A stretch of 64,000 nt of DNA from Candidatus Desulfarcum epimagneticum (GTDB lineage Bacteria; Desulfobacterota; Desulfobacteria; Desulfobacterales; CR-1), in NCBI GenBank assembly GCA_900659855.1, contig CAACVI010000045.1, positions 186,985 to 250,984 of the forward strand. Direction: 5' to 3'. Numbering within the stretch: the first letter of the stretch is position 1; each line of letters begins with the position of its first letter. Positions 2,648-12,583 of the stretch are shown one piece after another. A program made the translations under genes and the position numbers. The notes beneath the pieces are model-generated. The model did no database searches. It was not told the origin of the DNA and saw only the letters and a list, made by a program, of their open reading frames with translations.

Positions 2648-3901
2648 ATGAAAGGTAGCATGTTCATTATGCGACAAACGTCATACATCCCCCGCCCGGT
2701 TTTCGACTCCAAAATCAAACAATTCCTGGAGGAATCCCCGACCGTGATTCTTTTGGGGGCCCGGCAGGTGGGAAAAACCACCCTTGCCCGGCGTTTTTCC
2801 GACGGCCTGGACAAGGTCCATTATTTTGACCTTGAGCGGGCCGCTTCCCGCGCCGCGCTCTCAACCCCGGAGCTGACCCTTTCGGAGCTGAGCGGAACCG
2901 TCGTCATTGACGAAATCCAAAGAATGCCCCAGCTTTTTGAGACCCTTCGCCCCTTATGCGACCGTCCGGGAAACCCCGCCCGTTTCCTGCTTTTGGGAAG
3001 CGCCTCCCCGGACATCGTCAAAGGAGTTTCGGAATCCCTGGCGGGCCGGGCGCTTTTCATTAATGTGCCCGGATTTTCCCTTGGAGAGGTCGGGAATGAT
3101 TCACAAAACCCTTTATGGCTGAGGGGAGCGTTCCCCCGGTCATTTCTGGCGCCAAATGACGACGCCAGCATGCGCTGGCGCGAGGCGTTTGTCCAGACCT
3201 TCCTGGAGCGGGACATGCCCCTTCTGGGCGTGCGGACTCCCCCGGAAAGACTGCGCCGGTTCTGGATGATGGTCTCCCATTATCACGGCGCCGTATGGAA
3301 CGGCTCGGAAATCGCCCGATCGGTGGGGGTCTCCCTTCCCACGATCCGCCACTACCTGGATATACTGGCCGGTGGATACATCCTGCGCGTTCTGCCCCCC
3401 TGGTTTGAAAACATCAAAAAAAGGCAGGTCAAATCCCCGAAGGTGTATATCCGGGACACCGGGCTGCTTCATTCCATGCTGGGAATCGACTCCATGGCCG
3501 CGCTGCGTTCCCACCCCTCCTACGGCGCCTCCTGGGAGGGATTCGCCCTGGAGCAGATTCTCATTTTGTTCGGCCACCCAAATGCCTGTTACTGGCGAAC
3601 CCATCGGGGCGCCGAGCTGGATTTGATGATCTTTCACAAAGGAAAACGTCTGGGATTTGAGTTCAAATGCGCCGACGCCCCGGTCATGACCCGCTCCATG
3701 CACACGGCCCTTCGCGATCTCAAGCTGGACCGGCTCCATGTGATCTACCCGGGATCAAAATCATACCCGATCCATGAAAAGGCCCATGCGACGCCGCTTT
3801 CGCGGGCGGCTGCGCTTCTGCCCCGGGGAAACTTCACCCCAGGGGCTTTCCCACCATCCAAAAACAAAAAAGACCCCAAAAAAAAGGAGGATAACCCATG
3901 A
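2648..3901 (+). CDS. AAA ATPase with DUF4143 domain, inserted in the redox operon
   Basis: The protein has up to 417 residues. A Walker A loop (GARQVGKTT) lies near residue 40 and a Walker B (TVVIDEIQRMP) near residue 90. A DUF4143 region follows, ending in a nuclease-like fold (HRGAELDLMIFHKGKRLGFEFK). Starts at 2648, 2660 and 2669 are all possible; none has a strong ribosome site. The last 25 or so residues are low-complexity (Pro, Asn, Lys) and run into the Shine-Dalgarno region of the next gene, whose ATG overlaps the stop (ATGA). This tail looks like former intergenic DNA, suggesting the gene was inserted upstream of the cytochrome. Its role is unknown. Confidence 0.88.
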   Translation: MKGSMFIMRQTSYIPRPVFDSKIKQFLEESPTVILLGARQVGKTTLARRFSDGLDKVHYFDLERAASRAALSTPELTLSELSGTVVIDEIQRMPQLFETLRPLCDRPGNPARFLLLGSASPDIVKGVSESLAGRALFINVPGFSLGEVGNDSQNPLWLRGAFPRSFLAPNDDASMRWREAFVQTFLERDMPLLGVRTPPERLRRFWMMVSHYHGAVWNGSEIARSVGVSLPTIRHYLDILAGGYILRVLPPWFENIKKRQVKSPKVYIRDTGLLHSMLGIDSMAALRSHPSYGASWEGFALEQILILFGHPNACYWRTHRGAELDLMIFHKGKRLGFEFKCADAPVMTRSMHTALRDLKLDRLHVIYPGSKSYPIHEKAHATPLSRAAALLPRGNFTPGAFPPSKNKKDPKKKEDNP

Positions 3902-5553
3902 GATTCGCCAAAGCGCGCGGCCTTTCATGGGCCCTGGCCCTGGCGGTATGCCTGGCGCCGGCGGCCCCGGCCCTTTCGGCCGTTTCTGAAAATGACTCGG
4001 CCCCGGGCCGAAAGATGGCCCGGCAGGCTGTGGGAGAAAAAAAATCCTGGATCACGGCCGATCACTCCCAACATGACATTTTAAAACAGAAATTCACATC
4101 CGGGCCGGAGGTCACCCGGGCCTGTCTCCACTGCCACAACCAGGCGGCCGTCCAGTTTCACAAAACCATCCACTGGACCTGGATGAACCCCCTGGCCCCC
4201 AAAGAGGCGGGGCTGGGAAAAGGCGGGCTTTCCATCAACAACTTCTGAATCAACATCCAAAGCAACGAGGCTCGTTGCACATCGTGTCACGCCGGTTATG
4301 GATGGAAAGACAAAAATTTTGATTTTTCAGACCCCTCCAAAGTGGACTGCCTGGTCTGTCACGAGCAGACCGGAGCCTATAAAAAATTTCCCGCCGGCGC
4401 GGGAAATCCCGTGTCCGCGCCCAAGGTGTTTCCCGGGAACAAAAAAAAATATTTCCCGCCGGATTACAACCAGTCGGCCCGGAGCGTGGGCCGGCCCTCC
4501 CGTAAAAACTGCGGAACCTGCCATTTTTACGGCGGCGGGGGAGACGGGGTGAAACACGGCGACCTGGACTCGTCTTTGGCAAAGCCCAACAAGGCCCTGG
4601 ATGTTCACATGGGCCTGGACGGCCGGAATTTCGACTGTGTGCGCTGCCACACCACCACCCTGCACCAGGTCGCCGGGCGCCTGTACACCACCCCGGCTTT
4701 CAAGGGCCGCAAAAGCCTGGTGGAAGACGATCTGGCCTCCAAGATCACATGCGAGTCATGCCACACCGCCAAACCCCATAAAGTCAACGCCAAAGCCAAC
4801 GACCACACCGACAGGGTGGCGTGCCAGAGCTGCCATATTCCGACCTTCGCCCGGGTGAACCCCACCAAGATGTGGTGGGACTGGTCCACGGCCGGGAAGA
4901 AAAAAAACGGCAAACCCTACATGATCAAGGATGATTTTGGAAAACCCCGTTATTTCACCAAAAAGGGGGACATGCGCTGGGAGAAAAACGTCAAGCCCGA
5001 TTACTTCTGGTTCAACGGCGCCATGGAGTACATCACGGTCAAAGACACCATTGATCCGGGCCAAACGGTCCCCTTGAACCGTCCCATGGGAAGCATGGAC
5101 GATCCCAATTCCCGAATTTTCCCCTTCAAAATCCACCGGGGAAAACAGCCCTATGACAAGGTGAACAAAAACATGACCATCGTCCATCTCTTCCCCAAGG
5201 GCAAAGAGGACAAGGACGCCTACTGGAAGGGGTACGACTGGGCCAAAGCCATCGCGTTCGGAATGGATTACGCGGGCCTGCCTTTCTCCGGGGAATATGA
5301 TTTTGTGGAGACGAGCTACATGTTTCCCATCACCCATATGGTGGCGCCCAAGGAGAATGCCGTGGCCTGCTCCGAGTGCCACGCGCCTGAAAACAGCCGC
5401 CTGGCCTCTCTGGCGGGATTTTACATGCCGGGACGCGACGGCGCGGGCGTGGTGGACATCCTGGGGTGGCTCCTGGCGCTGGGCTCTTTGATCGGCGTGA
5501 TCGCGCACGGAGTGGGAAGGGTTCTGTCCGCTTCGGGAAGGAGGGAAAAATAA
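3898..5553 (+). CDS. octahaem c-type cytochrome (tetrathionate reductase/OTR family), probable selenoprotein
   Basis: Read through one in-frame TGA (4246-4248, residue 117), this is a 551-residue periplasmic cytochrome with a signal peptide (residues 1-28) and eight CXXCH haem sites. One lies before the TGA (CLHCH, 76-80) and seven after it (CTSCH, CLVCH, CGTCH, CVRCH, CESCH, CQSCH, CSECH). A C-terminal membrane helix spans roughly 520-542. The segments HWTW, NNF-stop-I, SNEARCTSCHAGYGW and GAYKKF match the octahaem tetrathionate reductase family as I remember it, where the TGA position is cysteine. Codon use and frame are intact on both sides, and a SECIS-like hairpin follows the TGA, so selenocysteine is favoured over a nonsense mutation. 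The cytochrome b gene follows 4 bases later. Likely substrates are sulfur or nitrogen oxyanions, but the true substrate is unknown. Confidence 0.85.
4246..4278 (+). promoter_or_regulatory. in-frame TGA with bacterial SECIS-like hairpin
   Basis: The TGA at 4246-4248 is followed by a perfect 7-base-pair stem, GCAACGA (4262-4268) with TCGTTGC (4272-4278), closing a GGC loop. The loop begins 20 bases after the TGA. Bacterial SECIS elements, read by SelB, lie directly downstream of the UGA, with an apical loop that carries guanine early and starts about 16-37 bases away; this hairpin meets those rules. The same bases encode the start of the second haem motif. No selA, selB, selC or selD is in the window. 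Confidence 0.75.
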
Positions 5554-5557
5554 CATC

Positions 5558-6214
5558 ATGGAAAACAAAAAAATGACCCATCTGTATCTGTATTCCCGTT
5601 ATGAGCGCTTCTGGCACTGGCTCCAGTCCCTTCTGATCCTCATTCTTCTGGCCACAGGCCTGGAAGTCAAGGGCGTTTTCACCCTCTTCGGATTCCACAG
5701 CGCGGTGAAGATTCACAATTTCACCGGGCTGTCCTGGCTGGTCGCCTTCGCCTTTTTCGTGTTCTGGATTTTCACCACCGGGGAGTGGCGCCAGTATGTC
5801 CCCACCACCCGGAAGATGCTGTCCGTGTGCCGGTATTACGCCCTGGGGATTTTTCGCGGGGAAGACCATCCGGTCCCCAAAAGAAAAGAGGCCAAGCACA
5901 ACCCCCTTCAGCGCCTCATCTACCTGGGCCTGGCCGCCCTTCTGCTGCCCATCCAGATGATCACCGGGTTTTTGTACTGGGGATACAACTCCTGGGCCGA
6001 ATGGGGCCTGGACGGGGCGCTGTCGCTGAAAGTTCTGGCCACGGTTCATGTGGCGGGGTCTTTCGCCATCCTGTCCTTTCTCATCGTTCATCTTTACATG
6101 ATCACCACCGGCCATTCCCTGGGGTCCCATGCCAAAGCCATGATCACGGGATGGGAAAGCGTGGAGGAGGGAGAAAAAATCGAAGACTGGGAAAAGGCCC
6201 GGGCCGCGCGATAA
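5558..6214 (+). CDS. membrane cytochrome b subunit
   Basis: This 218-residue protein has four or so membrane helices. Haem-ligand histidines are placed as in the thiosulfate reductase/formate dehydrogenase gamma cytochrome b family: ERFWHWLQS early, then FHSAVKIHNFTG, VHVAGSF and FLIVHLYMITTGH. It would link the quinone pool to the periplasmic ferredoxin and octahaem cytochrome encoded upstream. The ATG follows the cytochrome c stop by 4 bases. A strong hairpin follows the gene, marking the operon end. Confidence 0.88.
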   Translation: MENKKMTHLYLYSRYERFWHWLQSLLILILLATGLEVKGVFTLFGFHSAVKIHNFTGLSWLVAFAFFVFWIFTTGEWRQYVPTTRKMLSVCRYYALGIFRGEDHPVPKRKEAKHNPLQRLIYLGLAALLLPIQMITGFLYWGYNSWAEWGLDGALSLKVLATVHVAGSFAILSFLIVHLYMITTGHSLGSHAKAMITGWESVEEGEKIEDWEKARAAR

Positions 6215-6243
6215 GGCGCCCGGGAAAAAGGTCTGCCACGGCC

Positions 6244-6285
6244 TTTCCCCCCTCTCCCGGCCTTTTTCCCGGGAGAGGGGGGAAA
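6244..6285 (+). terminator. long GC-rich hairpin ending the redox operon
   Basis: TTTCCCCCCTCTCCCGG (6244-6260) pairs perfectly with its inverse at 6269-6285 around a short pyrimidine loop. The A/T flanks give only a weak U tract, so it may act as terminator or 3' stabiliser. Between here and 6668 I see no gene other than the family B repeat. Confidence 0.65.
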
Positions 6286-6493
6286 AGACTGTATTTTAAG
6301 AATTATTCACCGCCGACAGGCGCCTGAAGCGGAACCCATGTCAAGGACAATTTTCTCATAGAGTTGAGGCGCAAAAATGACTTCCACTGGACGCCGCCTG
6401 AATCCGGAGACAAAAAGCGGCCCATATCCGGAAAAGCTTGATTTCCAATAAAAAATCTTATAATAAAAAGATTTGACTCCACATGAAAAACCT

Positions 6494-6655
6494 TAGGGCT
6501 CGCTCAAAAATAACTTTACATTTTGGAAGCCAATTCATCCTGCCGGACTGCGTTATGAAAACTCGGCATATCCCGATATGCCTCAAGTTTTCACGCCTTG
6601 TCAAGCAGGCGACTTAACTCCCAAAATTGTAAACTAATTTTTGAGCGAACCCTTA
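6494..6655. repeat. family B repeat, copy 1 (162 bp)
   Basis: The ends are inverted (AGGGCTCGCTCAAAAATA against TTTTTGAGCGAACCCT) and the centre is the palindrome GGCATATCCCGATATGCC. A second copy lies at 30141-30302 in the opposite orientation and differs at about five positions by eye. It contains no gene; the whole could fold into one long hairpin. Confidence 0.9.
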
Positions 6656-6677
6656 TCTTGCATATTTTTTGACAGAC

Positions 6678-6866
6678 ATGAGAAAAAAAACACACACAAA
6701 TACCGTCATAGATGAGGCCGGAGAGAAAAGACTGGCGGAGTTGATAAAAGAGGCGGGAGAAGACGCCCGTTCGCGCAGAAAAAAAGTCATGGAAGAGCAT
6801 TATGACAAAATTCGGGCGGCGATCCGGAAAGGCGTTTCCAATCGTCAGGATTTTATCCCGGAATGA
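6678..6866 (+). CDS. small charged protein upstream of zeta toxin, probable antitoxin
   Basis: The product has 62 residues from ATG 6678, or 65 from TTG 6669. It is highly charged and probably helical, with repeated Glu/Lys/Arg and no cysteine. It overlaps the start of the zeta-like kinase gene by 4 bases. Small charged proteins in this position are typically the cognate antitoxin, so the function is inferred from context only. A family B repeat lies directly upstream and may carry or separate its promoter. Confidence 0.6.
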   Translation: MRKKTHTNTVIDEAGEKRLAELIKEAGEDARSRRKKVMEEHYDKIRAAIRKGVSNRQDFIPE

Positions 6867-7462
6867 AAGAGGCGAAAAATCCCAGGCTCATCATTGTGGC
6901 GGGTCCCAACGGATCGGGAAAAACAACCATCACCGAAAAGCTCCTGCGCCATGAATGGATGGGTGGCTGCGTTTATATCAATCCCGACATAATCGCTGAA
7001 GAAAAATTCAACGGCTGGAATTTACGGGAATCCATCATAAAAGCGGCCAATCACGCCAAAGAAATGAGGGAAGAATGTTTGTCCCGAAAAATGGATATGG
7101 CGTTTGAAACGGTCTTTTCATCTCCTGAAAAATTCGAGTTTGTAAAAAGAGCCAAAGTGGCGGGTTTTTTTTTGCGCCTGTTTTTCGTATGCACGGATGA
7201 TCCATCGATAAACGCCCGGAGAGTCGCCTCGCGCGTGATGGAAGGCGGTCATGATGTGCCGATTCCCAAAATCATCAGCCGCTACTACCGATCACTGTCA
7301 AATTGCGCGAACGCCCTGCCTTTGTTTGATCGCGCTTATTTTTACGACAATTCTTTGGAGAATGCCGACCCTGTTCTGATATTCAGAACAACCCATGGGA
7401 AGATGGCCAAGGTTTATGGCGAGGCGCCTCCATGGGCCGAGGATATAGCGAACTCGTCGTAA
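6863..7462 (+). CDS. zeta-toxin-like P-loop kinase
   Basis: This 199-residue protein has a P-loop (AGPNGSGKTTITEKL, residues 13-27), then YINPDIIAEEKFNGW and ESIIKAANHAKEMREECL, and a conserved middle (FETVFSSPEKFEFV) typical of zeta-like kinases. Zeta toxins phosphorylate UDP-N-acetylglucosamine or related substrates; here the substrate is not known. The start overlaps the small upstream gene, as in a toxin-antitoxin pair. Confidence 0.8.
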   Translation: MKEAKNPRLIIVAGPNGSGKTTITEKLLRHEWMGGCVYINPDIIAEEKFNGWNLRESIIKAANHAKEMREECLSRKMDMAFETVFSSPEKFEFVKRAKVAGFFLRLFFVCTDDPSINARRVASRVMEGGHDVPIPKIISRYYRSLSNCANALPLFDRAYFYDNSLENADPVLIFRTTHGKMAKVYGEAPPWAEDIANSS

Positions 7463-7624
7463 TTTCCAAGCGCGCAAAATCTATCGAGGTCCCGGATGGA
7501 TTTGGGCCCCCTTTCGCGTTTGTGTTCAAAACGGTCTTTGAGCCTCTGGTCATGCCTCATGACAAACGGCTTTGGAACCAATGATCCCCGAATCGGTGAA
7601 ACGGCATCCGAAAGAGAGATGGCC

Positions 7625-7927
7625 CTAAGTGGATGACGTGGCGCCTTCTTTTCTGATATTCGTCATTTTCATGACCGCCTCTTCCCAGTCGTCTGAACTG
7701 TGAATAAAGGGGCGCAATATTTTAATAAACTCTTTTCTCTTTTCGCTGGTTCTCAGCTTTTCAATGTCGATGGATGAAATATTTCGTTTCAAGTCATCAA
7801 ACGGGTAAAGCAAAAGATCCGGGAACGACGCATATTCAATGATTCTTCTCAGCCTGAATGGCTCCGTCAAATGGGTTTGCCCATCCCAGAAGTATTTATT
7901 CAGTCTTTTGTGCGGTTGTTTTGGCAT
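7625..7927 (-). CDS. 100-residue protein paired with AbiEii-like nucleotidyltransferase
   Basis: The N-terminus KRLNKYFWDGQTHL and the predicted all-helical content resemble the small 'YFWD' proteins (DUF6922-like) that accompany nucleotidyltransferase toxins. The gene overlaps the end of the nucleotidyltransferase gene by 32 bases, so translation is probably coupled. An antitoxin role is inferred from that arrangement. Confidence 0.6.
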   Translation of the reverse strand: MPKQPHKRLNKYFWDGQTHLTEPFRLRRIIEYASFPDLLLYPFDDLKRNISSIDIEKLRTSEKRKEFIKILRPFIHSSDDWEEAVMKMTNIRKEGATSST

Positions 7928-8609
7928 AATTAAAAATGTCTATGATGAGTTTCTTAATAAATAATCTGAAATCACCCATGCGAATATCATCGATCATTAA
8001 AACAGAGCCTTCCAAAAAATCTTCAGAAAATGCGATCAGAACTCCCTCATATTCCATGGGGACAATCTTATATTCAGCCCATTTCCCAATCTGTTCAAAG
8101 CTGAATTCCGGCAAAAGATAATACAGATCAATATAATCTTTCACAGTCTTCCTGTCATAAACAGCTGTTATCTTGTTTGTCACAATGTTTTCTTTCGAAT
8201 CGATCCATATTTTATTTTTCTTTGTTCTATTTCCCGGGCATTTGTAGTTTTCAAAAATAAATTCCATCTTCAAAGGCTTGGCATCCTGGTATGCCATGAT
8301 TCTTTTAAAATAATCGCCGTCAATTTGAATCTCGATGTCAAATTTATCGCCAATACGATTGAATATTTCTCGGCAGCATATGTCAAAATTTTCTTTTGGA
8401 AAATCATAGCCGTTAAAAAACAAATCAATATCATCTGAATATCGATGATTTAAGTAAAAACGGGACAAACAGGTTCCACCGCCCAAATAAAACGGGTCGG
8501 AGCCGATCAGATCAAAAATCTCATCCTGAAAAGGATATAAGAAATTTTCATAATATTCTTTATCTTCGGCGCCGGCGATTCTAATTTGATCAGGTTTTAA
8601 TTTTAACAT
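7896..8609 (-). CDS. AbiEii/AbiGii-type nucleotidyltransferase
   Basis: This 237-residue protein carries the nucleotidyltransferase signature GGGTCLSRFYLNHRYSDDIDLFF, with the two catalytic aspartates in DDIDLF. A further acidic position (KMEFIF) and a helical C-terminus follow. AbiEii proteins are toxins of type IV abortive-infection systems. The gene is clearly AT-richer than the flanking metabolic genes, suggesting transfer. Its partner here is the overlapping downstream gene rather than an upstream AbiEi. Confidence 0.8.
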   Translation of the reverse strand: MLKLKPDQIRIAGAEDKEYYENFLYPFQDEIFDLIGSDPFYLGGGTCLSRFYLNHRYSDDIDLFFNGYDFPKENFDICCREIFNRIGDKFDIEIQIDGDYFKRIMAYQDAKPLKMEFIFENYKCPGNRTKKNKIWIDSKENIVTNKITAVYDRKTVKDYIDLYYLLPEFSFEQIGKWAEYKIVPMEYEGVLIAFSEDFLEGSVLMIDDIRMGDFRLFIKKLIIDIFNYAKTTAQKTE

Positions 8610-8658
8610 TCTGAATGTTTTGCTGATTCGTTATTTTTAGTATAAATTATATGATATG

Positions 8659-8784
8659 CTACTTGTATGGCATTTTCCCCGAGTTTAGTAAGTGCAAAAA
8701 TCCTTGAAGCAAATCGGAAACTTGGCTTAAATTTTCTTCTGAAAGAGTATCAATAATGTACTGCAGAAAAGCCATTACAGTCAT
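8659..8784 (-). other. possible 41-codon open frame or gene remnant
   Basis: From the ATG at 8784 to a TAG at 8659 the minus strand reads MTVMAFLQYIIDTLSEENLS and on, a protein-like amphipathic composition. The frame stays open upstream for about a dozen more codons, beside an AGGAGGAG stretch but without an ATG. It may be a small protein or the tail of a deleted gene. No family recognised. Nothing else is visible between 8610 and 8855. Confidence 0.3.
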
Positions 8785-8855
8785 TGGAGCATAATTGTAT
8801 TCAATGTCTCCTCCTGTTTAAATGAAATACTCAAAACCCGGGAAGAACCAAGAAA

Positions 8856-9740
8856 TCAAAACGCCAGGGCCACGCTTTCCGGGTCTCCCTCCTTTTTCGC
8901 CTGCTGCAAAAAAGGAAACACGCACCCGCATTGGCCGCAATCCACATCGCGCCCGAGCACGCAGGGAAGTTTTCTCTCCAGCCGCAAATCAAGGGTCAGG
9001 GTTCGGTCGGGCATGTTGCAAAGCGCCACGCATTTTTCAGAGGAGCCGCTCATCATCAGCTCAAGGGTTCGCGCGGGATTGAAAATAAACCCCTCGTATT
9101 CCTTTTTCATCTCAAGCAGATCCTCAATGGCGCGGTCCCTCTCTTCCGGAGAAAGGGCCAGACTCTCCGCCTGCTCAGCGGTGTGCTCATACCCTTTGAC
9201 GGGGCGGTATGTTTTAAGAGGGGTGAAAAAAAGAACGCCCAGCCGGGCGTTGGGAACCCGGGACAGAATGGACACCATCTCTTTGAGATGGGGGGCGTTT
9301 TTTCGGTTGATGGTGGTAAGAAAAATCACGAGGGGCAGTTTGGCCCGCCTGACATTTTCAAGACTCTTTTCAAAGGCCCCGGCGCCCCGGATATAGTTGT
9401 GAACCTCCGGGGGGCCGTCAATGGACACGCACACAATCGCGTTGGGCAGGCGGGGAAACGGAAGGGTCCCATTGGAATAAATGGTGTTGAATTTAAAAAG
9501 CCCCGTCCCTTTTTCCAAAAGCTCCCGGCGGTATGTGGGCTCGCCCCCGCACCAGCCCATGCTCAGGATGTTGTGCCGGTCCCGAAGCGTCTCCAAACCC
9601 TCAAGAAAGGCCCCCTCCTCCATGTCCCGGCTGTCATGCTCTTCCCTGAAATAAAAGCAATGACGGCGCCTGAGATTGCATTTATCCGTGACATCGACAA
9701 TGGCGGAATGATATTGTCCCGGCTGTTTCTCTTCAAACAT
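8856..9740 (-). CDS. radical SAM/SPASM-like protein with an altered cluster motif
   Basis: The start at 9740 is chosen because GGAGG lies 7 bases upstream; a longer frame exists to 9779. The 294-residue protein has the fold signals of a radical SAM enzyme: DVTDKCNL...HCFYF, GWCGGEP, IYSNGT and VSIDGPPEVHNYIRG. A C-terminal Cys group (CVLGRDVDCGQCGC) resembles an auxiliary-cluster domain. The canonical CXXXCXXC reads CNLRRRHC, so the second Cys is Arg (codon CGC, 9666-9668), one transition from TGC. With only two of three ligands it may be inactive, or the base may be an error. The substrate is unknown. Confidence 0.82.
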   Translation of the reverse strand: MFEEKQPGQYHSAIVDVTDKCNLRRRHCFYFREEHDSRDMEEGAFLEGLETLRDRHNILSMGWCGGEPTYRRELLEKGTGLFKFNTIYSNGTLPFPRLPNAIVCVSIDGPPEVHNYIRGAGAFEKSLENVRRAKLPLVIFLTTINRKNAPHLKEMVSILSRVPNARLGVLFFTPLKTYRPVKGYEHTAEQAESLALSPEERDRAIEDLLEMKKEYEGFIFNPARTLELMMSGSSEKCVALCNMPDRTLTLDLRLERKLPCVLGRDVDCGQCGCVFPFLQQAKKEGDPESVALAF

Positions 9741-9906
9741 GGATGGCCTCCTTCCCCCTGAAATCCGGTAACCATTCACGGGGTTGAAATGGTCAATATG
9801 TGATAACCCACCGAACTGTAAGCGTTACCCACTCAAAACAGCGAAGAGCCATTTTTCTTTTTTTCCCAGGCAGGTTGACAATTTCTGTAATTTAGTGACA
9901 TCTGCT

Positions 9907-10548
9907 TCATACCATACAACCGTAGATAACTGTCAACGCCAAAGTATAGACAATAAGAGCATAAAACCATTTTCCGGCAAATTTAGACGTTCGTATAGGT
10001 GCTAAATTAAACACTGTAAGCGCCATCAATAAAGCATAAAGGACGATTGAAAAAACCGTATATTTAATAAAGCCTTCAAACAAAAACACAAAAGCAAGAA
10101 TAAGAACATTGTTGTCTAATGCCAGCCCCATGTATGTTTTATCGTCAATCAGGCCGAAAATGTTGAAATAACTCAATCTTATAGCGCTGGCGGCGACAAT
10201 AAGAAAGGCTCCCGGCAGGAACCAGGGGCTGAACTTACCATAGCTTAGAAGAAAAATAGCTGGGAATATTCCAAAACTTACAATATCTATCAACGAATCA
10301 AGCTGCCCCCCAAAAGCCCGATGGCGCTTTGTTCGTTCCGTCATTTTTCGAGCAATGATTCCGTCGGCCCAGTCAAATAAAACAGCCCACAGAACTCCAA
10401 TTATCGCAACAGGGAAATTGCCCAAAATAGCATAGTAAATACCAAGCGTCGCACATAACAAGCCTGCAAGCGAACAAATATTGGGGAGATCTCTGGCAAA
10501 AGAAAGCATTGTGGGCTGATGGGTTTGCTGAGGTTTGGAATTTGTCAT
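9907..10548 (-). CDS. CDP-alcohol phosphatidyltransferase
   Basis: This 213-residue membrane protein has about six helices and a CDP-alcohol phosphotransferase motif spread over FDWADGIIARKMTERTKRHRAFGGQLDSLIDIV, matching D-G-x2-A-R-x(8+)-G-x3-D-x3-D with a longer first spacer than usual. The family moves a phosphoalcohol from CDP-alcohol, or phosphatidyl from CDP-diacylglycerol. It follows the PLP enzyme gene after 5 bases with AAGGAAG as ribosome site. In this operon it is the likely final step, transferring a headgroup from a CDP-activated aminoalcohol to diacylglycerol (inference). Confidence 0.82.
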   Translation of the reverse strand: MTNSKPQQTHQPTMLSFARDLPNICSLAGLLCATLGIYYAILGNFPVAIIGVLWAVLFDWADGIIARKMTERTKRHRAFGGQLDSLIDIVSFGIFPAIFLLSYGKFSPWFLPGAFLIVAASAIRLSYFNIFGLIDDKTYMGLALDNNVLILAFVFLFEGFIKYTVFSIVLYALLMALTVFNLAPIRTSKFAGKWFYALIVYTLALTVIYGCMV

Positions 10549-10553
10549 TATTT

Positions 10554-11669
10554 TTATGCTTCCTTTTTTTTTAAGTTCATTACATCGATTAAAGCTGCGA
10601 CTAATTTACAATTCTCTGATTCTGTGCGGCTGGCGATCCGAATATAACGATCAGAATCTGGTTGAGTTTTACCCACACAGTCCTTTATGTACATATTATA
10701 TTCAATAAATAATTTTTTCGTGATTTCGGGAGCGCTTTGCGCATAATCAGGCAGGCGACAGAAAATAAAGTTTGCGTCAGGTTTTAAAATAGTCATCCCT
10801 TCAATACTACAAAGTTTATTATACAGGCCGTCTCTGTCGGTTCGAACTTGTTTGCAGCTTTCAATAAATTCCTGTTTGTAATCGGGTAAAAGCCGTAGAA
10901 ACTCTTCTGCAAATCCGTTAATATTCCAAATATGCACGCCGTTTCTCACGGCTTCAGCAAATTTTGGATTTGCAGTCAGCATATAACCAATCCTAAGCCC
11001 ACAAATACCATAAGCCTTGCTCATGCTTTTAAAAATCGCCATACTCGGGTGGTTTCCGATTTCTTGTTCCAAGCTTATTTGATCAGGGTTCTGCGCAAAA
11101 TCCAAAAATGATTCATCTATAATCAGCATACAGTCATGACGTTCAAGCTTTTTTGCAAGCCAAATGAGATCGGACTTGGGAATTAGCATAGATGTTGGAT
11201 TGTTAGGCGTTACTACAACAGCCACATCAGCTTTTATTCTGATTGCTTCCGCAGCAAATTTATATACATCCAGTTGGAAAGAGGGGAACTCAAGCGGAAA
11301 TTCGACTACTTGGCCTGAAGGCGCGGCATTGGCATATTCATTAAAAGAAGGCACGGGAACGATTAACTTATGTGATATGTGACTGGATATTATTTTTATT
11401 AATTCAGCCGCTCCGTTTCCCACAACAATTCTTTCCGCAGGTTGACCGATTATTTTGCCAACAAGTCCGGCAAGGGCATCTTGCGCCACCGGATAATTCA
11501 GAACAAGGTCTTGAATTTGATCTTTAAAGCTTCTGAAAATAGCCTCTGGTGGGAAATAAAGATTATAAAGATAGGCGTGATCTATAAAATCATGCCGATA
11601 GTAACCACCATGTTGACCGGAAATGAATTCGTATTTTTCGGATTGAGTCTTATAATTATCATCTGACAT
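10554..11669 (-). CDS. CobD-like fold-type I PLP enzyme (phospho-amino acid decarboxylase or aminotransferase)
   Basis: This 371-residue protein keeps the N-terminal GQHGG and the C-terminal pattern KDCVGKTQ...RYIRIASRTESENCKLVAAL of threonine-phosphate decarboxylase (CobD) and its relatives. The class I/II aminotransferase core is present: VGNGAAELI, VVTPNNPTS, IIDESFLDF, and the PLP lysine in FKSMSKAYGICGLRIGY. CobD makes aminopropanol phosphate from threonine phosphate; related enzymes use serine phosphate. Flanked by a nucleotidyltransferase and a CDP-alcohol transferase rather than cobamide genes, it may supply ethanolamine or aminopropanol phosphate. An ordinary HisC-type aminotransferase remains possible. 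Confidence 0.8.
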   Translation of the reverse strand: MSDDNYKTQSEKYEFISGQHGGYYRHDFIDHAYLYNLYFPPEAIFRSFKDQIQDLVLNYPVAQDALAGLVGKIIGQPAERIVVGNGAAELIKIISSHISHKLIVPVPSFNEYANAAPSGQVVEFPLEFPSFQLDVYKFAAEAIRIKADVAVVVTPNNPTSMLIPKSDLIWLAKKLERHDCMLIIDESFLDFAQNPDQISLEQEIGNHPSMAIFKSMSKAYGICGLRIGYMLTANPKFAEAVRNGVHIWNINGFAEEFLRLLPDYKQEFIESCKQVRTDRDGLYNKLCSIEGMTILKPDANFIFCRLPDYAQSAPEITKKLFIEYNMYIKDCVGKTQPDSDRYIRIASRTESENCKLVAALIDVMNLKKKEA

Positions 11670-11743
11670 TTAAGATGCCTTTTGCTTCCCAGAGAGAGGT
11701 TACAGCATTGCGCAAAAAATCGGGATGTGAAAGCGTAATCGTT

Positions 11744-12583
11744 TTAGTGGTTGTATGATAGCGGCGGGGAAGTGGACGTAGTCAGAGCCGCGATTCCCAG
11801 GGAGCGCAGTCGCCGGGAATCATCTGATAAGAACAGTTTCTCTGCCTCTGCCAGATCTTCAATAGTGTCTATTTCATACCATGGCTTGCCGTCAAAAGAG
11901 ACATCTTCAAAAGAGAGGCTGCCGTCAGCAATCATCTCCGCAAATATAATTTCGTAATAGTCATTTGTGTTGCCATCTGAAATATGTTTGTCTAATCTTT
12001 TTACAATTTCATTCCAGGAGTTAAGTGAAATGCTGTAAATATTAACGGTCTTGTATTTGATCTGACCAAAGGAGTCTGCGTTGGCTGCCAAAAATGCGTT
12101 AACATGGTGAGATTGATTGATTGTAACACATGTCCCATTCATCCATGGCTGCATTTTTGCAACGGCTATTCTGTTAGGATACATCATGGCATCCAGAAGT
12201 GATTCATCAAAAACAAGATCACTTTCAAGGAGCAGAAATGGTTCATTAATTATTTTACGCGCAATCCAGAGAGAATAGATATTGTTGCTCGTCTTGTATA
12301 ACGGATTGAAAACATATTCGATTTTCATTTCCCCCACCTGATCTCCCAAAAAATCTCTTATATGCTTTTCCAGATGTCCTGTAACAACGACCAGGCGTTT
12401 GAAACCATGCAGATTCAAACTGGCGGTCAGCCGTTCAAGTATCGACATGCCGCTAACTATTGTCATGCATTTTGGGGCATTTTCCGTCAAGGGATAAAGA
12501 CGGCTGCCTGTGCCGGCTGCAAGGAGTACTGCTGTGGTCACATGTTCTTTATGGCGAGAGTTATGTTTCAAATTAATTTCCAT
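11744..12583 (-). CDS. LicC/PntC-like nucleotidyltransferase (CTP:phosphoaminoalcohol cytidylyltransferase)
   Basis: This 279-residue sugar-nucleotidyltransferase-fold protein has the signature LLAAGTGSRLYPLTENAPKC (residues 20-39). NNIYSLW, LLLESDLVFD, KTVNIYSIS and YYEIIFAEMI follow; these resemble choline-phosphate and 2-aminoethylphosphonate cytidylyltransferases. It would activate a phosphorylated or phosphono-aminoalcohol as the CDP derivative. It is first in a three-gene minus-strand set; the next gene begins 75 bases on. AAAGGAAA precedes the ATG. No phosphoenolpyruvate mutase is near, so a phosphate ester substrate is more likely than a phosphonate. Confidence 0.78.
   Translation of the reverse strand: MEINLKHNSRHKEHVTTAVLLAAGTGSRLYPLTENAPKCMTIVSGMSILERLTASLNLHGFKRLVVVTGHLEKHIRDFLGDQVGEMKIEYVFNPLYKTSNNIYSLWIARKIINEPFLLLESDLVFDESLLDAMMYPNRIAVAKMQPWMNGTCVTINQSHHVNAFLAANADSFGQIKYKTVNIYSISLNSWNEIVKRLDKHISDGNTNDYYEIIFAEMIADGSLSFEDVSFDGKPWYEIDTIEDLAEAEKLFLSDDSRRLRSLGIAALTTSTSPPLSYNH

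Follow-up and report, generated by a model that had tools for sequence, protein, structure and literature searches.

A 64,000-nucleotide stretch of the genome of Candidatus Desulfarcum epimagneticum (contig CAACVI010000045.1, positions 186,985 to 250,984; below, the window) carries three adjacent genes encoding a LicC-like cytidylyltransferase, a CobD-like enzyme dependent on pyridoxal 5'-phosphate (PLP) and a cytidine diphosphate (CDP)-alcohol phosphotransferase resembling phosphatidylserine synthase (PSS). We propose, with a probability of about 0.5, that this trio is a mobile three-enzyme module which would convert O-phosphoserine to CDP-ethanolamine and place a phosphoethanolamine headgroup on a lipid. 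The data below establish the identity of the genes, their conserved order, their joint spread and the kinship of the PLP enzyme with other PLP enzymes linked to cytidylyltransferases.

All three genes lie on the minus strand. The cytidylyltransferase gene (279 residues; 11744..12583; Pfam NTP_transferase, 44.1 bits) comes first and is followed, after a stop-to-start gap of 74 bp, by the gene of the PLP enzyme (371 residues; 10554..11669; Aminotran_1_2, 99.3 bits) and, after a further 5 bp, by that of the CDP-alcohol phosphotransferase (213 residues; 9907..10548; CDP-OH_P_transf, PF01066, 42.8 bits). These matches all exceed the Pfam cut-offs. The first-pass annotation had described the genes as adjacent and co-oriented, and we found them where it had placed them, with agreeing Pfam families. 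It had also suggested looking for the trio elsewhere. When genome_contigs was scanned with the PLP protein, 157 stretches encoded a relative, and the best 80, which were kept, represented 79 loci with PLP identities of 72-89%. The order cytidylyltransferase-PLP enzyme-CDP-alcohol phosphotransferase was intact in 71 of the 79. Among the eight exceptions, three loci start at most 181 bp before the PLP gene and three stop at most 190 bp after it, at contig edges; the true exceptions, lacking the third gene, were two loci (L042 and L043). Moreover, the pairwise distances of the three proteins correlated with each other (r = 0.76, 0.86 and 0.73 over 60 loci), the maximum in 999 permutations being 0.15. 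This comparison used 60 of the 80 sets (the 79 loci and the window) and excluded loci lacking three full-length frames as well as L025, which has two copies. The recurrence of the trio is not due to chance.

The PLP enzyme scored 169.6 bits against the CobD profile (TIGR01140) and 125.0 bits against that of HisC (TIGR01141), under the curated cut-offs of 290.55 and 276.55, respectively, and all 44 aligned members matched both profiles (best E-values 5.5e-56 and 4.9e-43). Its top solved relative, by phmmer and by Foldseek, was SMUL_1544 (6oux; 28-29% identity), a protein that serves norcobamide synthesis in Sulfurospirillum and that we take to be a serine-phosphate decarboxylase. In the structure-based assignment recommended in the first pass, Foldseek put SMUL_1544 first, whereas VIA-align (model mean predicted local distance difference test score, pLDDT, 80.5) tied CobD (Z 30.1), SMUL_1544 (Z 29.8) and HisC (Z 29.7-29.8). 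Because these scores tie, the fold cannot tell a decarboxylase from an aminotransferase. In a 45-row tree, the trio enzymes grouped with PLP enzymes adjacent or fused to a cytidylyltransferase (support 100/100); HisC formed a branch of its own (100/99), and CobD, the monophyly of which was weak (75/58), also stood apart. The joint clade has a long stem of 2.88 changes per column, and the programme issued a long-branch warning. The tree included 13 of the 14 CobD-profile rows (L123 had no usable frame; 5 of the 14 loci exceed the CobD cut-off), and FrbH itself was not among its rows. As judged from sequence, the PLP enzyme is a separate clade, neither HisC nor cobamide CobD. The clustering with HisC which the first pass had named as a possible refutation did not appear in this tree, and an identity as HisC or an amino-sugar aminotransferase was ruled out by the profile scores and the tree, despite the tie in fold. 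All 78 full-length members contain both SxSK, presumably the site of the PLP lysine, and the PNNP loop, as do CobD, HisC and similar PLP enzymes of fold type I. The enzyme is a probable phosphoserine (or cytidine monophosphate (CMP)-phosphoserine) decarboxylase. A precedent is Campylobacter Cj1436, which decarboxylates L-serine phosphate to ethanolamine phosphate, according to the available part of PMC11800397. If this reading is right, the module defines a PLP subfamily that is automatically annotated as histidinol-phosphate aminotransferase, and the cytidylyltransferase partner would explain this subfamily.

The best solved relative of the cytidylyltransferase was LicC (1jyk; E 5e-15), followed by PntC. 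The LicC/PntC signature GXG(T/S)R-X4-8-PK (given in the accessible text of PMC6697681) reads GTGSR-X8-PK in the window protein, and G24, G26, R28, P37 and K38 were invariant in 23 of 23 aligned sequences. The form NN.YSL, that of LicC, was present in 71 of the 72 trio cytidylyltransferases, with TGS instead of NN in PntC and in all three cytidylyltransferases from rhizobial phosphonate clusters. For the third enzyme, the nearest structure was Methanocaldococcus jannaschii PSS (Z 19.8; root-mean-square deviation 2.5 Å over 177 residues; model mean pLDDT 86.1), the next family reaching Z 12.4, DIPP synthase Z 10.7 and cholinephosphotransferases Z 7.1-10.5. It conforms to the CDP-alcohol phosphotransferase motif DxxDGxxAR(nx)GxxxDxxxD (PMC8633023, in part): D59, D62, G63, A66, G80, D84 and D88 were invariant in 44 of 44 sequences and R67 was present in at least 90%. 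The equivalents of PSS Asp62, Ser63, Asp66, Arg101 and Phe105 were likewise kept in all 44 (numbering from the same part of PMC8633023, transferred through sequence alignment). The score against PssA (TIGR00473), 71.7 bits, stayed under the curated cut-off of 107. In addition, Arg104 of M. jannaschii PSS corresponds to Tyr in the trio: RL[ST]YF was found in 70 of 70 proteins and RLARF, the form of both M. jannaschii PSS and the PssA of this genome, in none. RLSYF also occurs in both CDP-alcohol phosphotransferases from rhizobial phosphonate clusters bearing a cytidylyltransferase, a small sample. The replacement of RLARF by RL[ST]YF suggests that the trio enzyme and PSS have different substrates. 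Since M. jannaschii PSS accepts CDP-archaeol and CDP-diacylglycerol alike (as stated in the part of PMC8633023 consulted), a PSS-type enzyme can serve both domains.

The CDP-aminoalcohol route put forward in the first-pass annotation remained the best reading of these sequence and fold data, which combine a LicC-like cytidylyltransferase, a PLP enzyme nearest to SMUL_1544 and a PSS-type CDP-alcohol phosphotransferase. From them we infer a decarboxylation, its substrate, the order of the steps, the acceptor, the product and a benefit to the cell. The LicC-like enzyme would consume cytidine triphosphate (CTP) and the CobD-like enzyme would take off CO2; O-phospho-L-serine would become CDP-ethanolamine either by decarboxylation and subsequent activation or through CMP-phosphoserine, as in enzymes of the FrbH type. 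The PSS-like membrane enzyme would then use CDP-ethanolamine as the donor of phosphoethanolamine to a lipid, in the simplest case bacterial diacylglycerol or archaeal archaeol. Some hosts have a further gene beside the set, resembling those of ATP-grasp amino-acid ligases or S-adenosylmethionine (SAM) methyltransferases, the product of which would modify the free amine. A more specific and clearly more tentative version sees in the trio a mobile cassette, common to sediment bacteria from many phyla and to methanogens and anaerobic methanotrophic (ANME) archaea, that would put one unusual headgroup on the chemically different lipids of bacteria and archaea. The steps would follow an order not described before, with CMP-phosphoserine formed first and decarboxylated to CDP-ethanolamine afterwards, and with amino-acid ligation or N-methylation as alternative ways of finishing the amine.

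Several observations weigh against the phosphoserine route. The modelled fold of the PLP enzyme leaves decarboxylase and aminotransferase unseparated, and neither the CobD nor the HisC cut-off was reached. In the nearest relatives of the third enzyme, the donor is a CDP-lipid and the acceptor a free alcohol, opposite to the roles proposed here. The clade of linked PLP enzymes includes real phosphonate clusters, and phosphoenolpyruvate (PEP) mutase (TIGR02320) was above cut-off in five of the 49 trio genomes examined; this count and that of psd cover 49 draft genomes of the 79 loci, with L084 left out. Neither an ATP-grasp nor a methyltransferase gene adjoins the window copy of the trio. Finally, the first pass had suggested that the trio bypasses the usual CDP-diacylglycerol/phosphatidylserine pathway and had advised a genome-wide check for its genes. 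Both proved to be present, psd and pssA lying side by side on contig C51 of this genome (PssA 126.8 bits, cut-off 107), and psd was found in 41 of the 49 trio genomes. The bypass was therefore rejected, and the module would be redundant if it made plain phosphatidylethanolamine.

The alternatives differ from the phosphoserine route in the substrate, in the acceptor or in the chemistry of the PLP enzyme. Among them, an acceptor other than a diacyl or diether glycerol of the membrane is unlikely but the most probable: transfer to a polyprenol, glycolipid, surface polymer or small polar alcohol would modify the cell surface or yield a soluble phosphodiester acting as a compatible solute. It would fit the presence of the set in bacteria and archaea, the lipids of which are wholly different, the match of the cytidylyltransferase to the inositol-phosphate cytidylyltransferase/DIPP synthase profile (70.9 bits) and the CDP-glycerol glycerophosphotransferase gene (PF04464) next to the fused relative L116. 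However, the third enzyme is near PSS and far from DIPP synthase (Z 19.8 and 10.7), and PSS accepts lipids of both kinds, as described in the excerpted PMC8633023. If the substrate were L-threonine phosphate, the headgroup would be (R)-1-amino-2-propanol phosphate and the product an aminopropanol phospholipid. We consider this improbable. CobD, which acts on threonine phosphate, is the best-scoring profile, and its substrate-bound structure shares the structural top (Z 30.1); yet the top relative in sequence and by Foldseek is SMUL_1544, and no dedicated kinase, which phosphothreonine requires, was seen adjoining the set, although a genome-wide search for one was not made. Quite improbable, too, is an aminotransferase that would turn, for example, dihydroxyacetone phosphate into serinol phosphate, the headgroup then being serinol or another amino sugar alcohol. 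The HisC fold tie speaks for it, as does Campylobacter Cj1437, which forms (S)-serinol phosphate by transamination (PMC11800397, in the portion available), whereas for the window protein the CobD profile scores 45 bits above that of HisC, the tree splits off HisC and the top phmmer match is a decarboxylase.

Least probable of all is a phosphonate version, in which phosphonoalanine and 2-aminoethylphosphonate would be handled and a phosphonolipid made. The first-pass annotation had treated a conserved phosphonate neighbourhood as evidence against its proposal; we found none at the trio itself, but one does surround distant relatives. On three rhizobial plasmids, PLP relatives of 37-42% identity cluster with aepX, the gene of PEP mutase, and with genes for an aminotransferase and for a cytidylyltransferase; PEP mutase is on all three plasmids, and two of the three clusters also carry a CDP-alcohol phosphotransferase. 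The five trio genomes with PEP mutase also favour this version. Against it, 44 of the 49 drafts, for which completeness is not given, have no PEP mutase above cut-off. Furthermore, the trio cytidylyltransferases have NN where the phosphonate ones have TGS, and the lone PF13714 match of this genome, on which TIGR02320 was not run, reads EDQKRPRRCGH. We take this to be the form of methylisocitrate-lyase-like enzymes and EDK-X5-NS, which it lacks, to be the PEP mutase motif. A phosphonate role was rejected on these grounds. The trio occurs independently of PEP mutase, and because most trio genomes are without this enzyme, the product is more likely to be a phosphate ester than a phosphonate.

Long or fused PLP relatives without PEP mutase on the record were found on Priestia megaterium pBM700, Erwinia pERA55 and pNGR234a; in the last, Pfam detects the aminotransferase half only. 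The fused cytidylyltransferase-PLP gene of pBM700 (L088; NC_014023.1, about 143-151 kb; 2862-10966 of the locus) is accompanied by genes for an N-monooxygenase-like protein, an AAC(3) acetyltransferase, two ATP-grasp proteins and an additional DXR. By its predicted gene content, the cluster has what one would expect for making an N-acyl-N-hydroxy inhibitor of DXR. It is a candidate for the synthesis of a phosphate DXR inhibitor resembling fosfoxacin or fosfocytocin, and for self-resistance to it; the phosphate version of fosmidomycin, fosfoxacin, occurs as a natural product (PMC9782300, in part). In a Methanosarcinales genome (L116 in G594; 5580-9647), a fused cytidylyltransferase-PLP gene lies beside the PF04464 gene mentioned above and a gene of the ornithine-cyclodeaminase family, a group that perhaps specifies a surface polymer bearing an aminoalcohol phosphate. 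A common theme may be that the cytidylyltransferase-PLP pair supplies a CMP-activated aminoalcohol to varied users.

The hosts of the trio, as named in the record titles, include Desulfobacteraceae, Bacteroidota, Spirochaetota, Chlorobiota, Calditrichota, Zixibacteria, Planctomycetota, Acidobacteriota, Gammaproteobacteria and Methanosarcinales. One host available in culture is Methanococcoides seepicolus LLY (L030). In an 83-row tree, the 11 archaeal rows formed one group (support 98) adjoining bacterial rows, and the 16 phylum labels required 28 changes against a minimum of 15, a number that overstates transfer where titles naming 'Deltaproteobacteria' carry the taxonomy label Myxococcota. 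At the same time, occurrence was patchy. PLP identity at the level of the trio was reached in 2 of 395 genomes drawn evenly from the phylum of the window, its own genome counted, and in 1 of 395 drawn around another host, G049, namely G049 itself. In the order of Methanococcoides (G016), 21 of 185 genomes had the PLP enzyme at 75% identity or more, with 22 full-length matches as one genome (G012) has two copies, and one further genome had a 128-residue fragment of 73% identity. The two copies belong to a tandem duplicate of the three-gene set on one Methanosarcina contig (L120, contig C18; 5829-12151), and their PLP genes score alike. The high similarity over large phylogenetic distances and the patchy occurrence indicate that the set has spread horizontally as a unit, probably by repeated transfer, and across the boundary between bacteria and archaea, a mobility that the first-pass annotation had not noticed.

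Contamination or binning error in metagenome-assembled genomes does not explain the wide spread, because in three archaeal genomes (G519, G529 and G569) the trio sits on a contig spanning the entire genome, with differing flanks. Carriage by phages was rejected as well: a peptide-pattern scan of viral_contigs gave no relative, and four Listeria phage records matched at 27% identity only. Relatives occurred in 16 plasmid records, every one below 60% identity, and plasmid carriage of the trio was likewise discarded. Terminal repeats that would mark the trio as an insertion were looked for, and no convincing one was found.

Among the 58 loci with at least 1300 bp after the set, 16 had an ATP-grasp gene or its remnant, nine a SAM methyltransferase gene and none both. 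This mutual exclusion (Fisher p 0.04) is weak evidence, because the loci are related, and several of the ATP-grasp copies beside the set are remnants. The ATP-grasp protein shows weak similarity to the amino-acid ligases LdmS and BesA. ATP-grasp ligases and methyltransferases commonly act on amines, and a product with a free amine, which either enzyme may modify, would fit this. In G529 (L118; 3363-8956), an ATP-grasp gene is located near the set, separated from it by an opposite-strand gene of 313 residues of unidentified family.

In the window, the trio genes have a G+C content of 39-42%, compared to 54.5% for the window as a whole and 55% and 59% for the direct neighbours. These are, by Pfam, a sigma-54 activator gene upstream and a radical SAM protein gene downstream, and neither is represented in the 45 largest clusters of neighbours from the other loci. 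Also near the trio, at 6863-8609, lie more foreign-looking genes: one is zeta-toxin-like, and another, of 34% G+C and with a small partner gene, encodes an AbiEii-like nucleotidyltransferase. Profile searches revealed no PEP mutase or cobamide gene among the neighbours examined, as the first pass had observed. A cobamide role was dismissed for this reason and because the genome encodes a further CobD homologue elsewhere, on contig C12 (272.4 bits).

If confirmed, the trio would be a serine-based microbial counterpart of the Kennedy (CDP-ethanolamine) pathway in which free ethanolamine and its kinase are not required, and a set of lipid-headgroup genes that gene transfer has carried across the lipid divide between bacteria and archaea. 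Such a route is known for animal cells and hardly described in microbes. It would also provide a concrete lipidomics prediction for marine methanogens and ANME archaea, the polar lipids of which are used as biomarkers. The combination of the three enzymes and its cross-domain spread were not found in the literature searched, which included the available part of the review PMC8027125 and few subscription papers.

Like the trio, the eukaryotic Kennedy pathway activates an aminoalcohol phosphate with CTP and transfers it by a CDP-alcohol phosphotransferase. However, it starts from free ethanolamine and a kinase, whereas the trio would use phosphoserine and a PLP decarboxylase, and the last enzyme of the trio is closer to PSS than to the cholinephosphotransferases. 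SMUL_1544 and Cj1436 are CobD-like PLP enzymes as in the trio, but serve cobamides and capsule amidation, respectively, while the trio enzyme spreads together with a cytidylyltransferase and a transferase of the lipid type. In FR-900098 biosynthesis, FrbH combines a cytidylyltransferase with a PLP decarboxylase, its other half, acting on one amino acid, and fused relatives of this build group with the trio PLP enzyme in the 45-row tree. FrbH, which performs the cytidylyltransfer (PMC6697681, in part), is one fused protein with a phosphonate substrate; the trio has two genes for these functions, an extra membrane transferase and no PEP mutase. PntC, too, joins a LicC-family cytidylyltransferase to a PLP enzyme, but its PLP half (6pd1) is named a class V aminotransferase and its substrate is 2-aminoethylphosphonate, as given in the same part of PMC6697681. 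PSS (CDP-diacylglycerol-serine O-phosphatidyltransferase) has its fold and metal-binding residues in common with the third enzyme of the trio, which differs from it in falling under the pssA cut-off and in the Tyr at the position of Arg104 in 70 of 70 proteins. Each enzyme's chemistry has a precedent. Together the three form a real, conserved and mobile gene set that, on sequence grounds, probably encodes a CDP-ethanolamine route leading from serine phosphate to the headgroup of a lipid.

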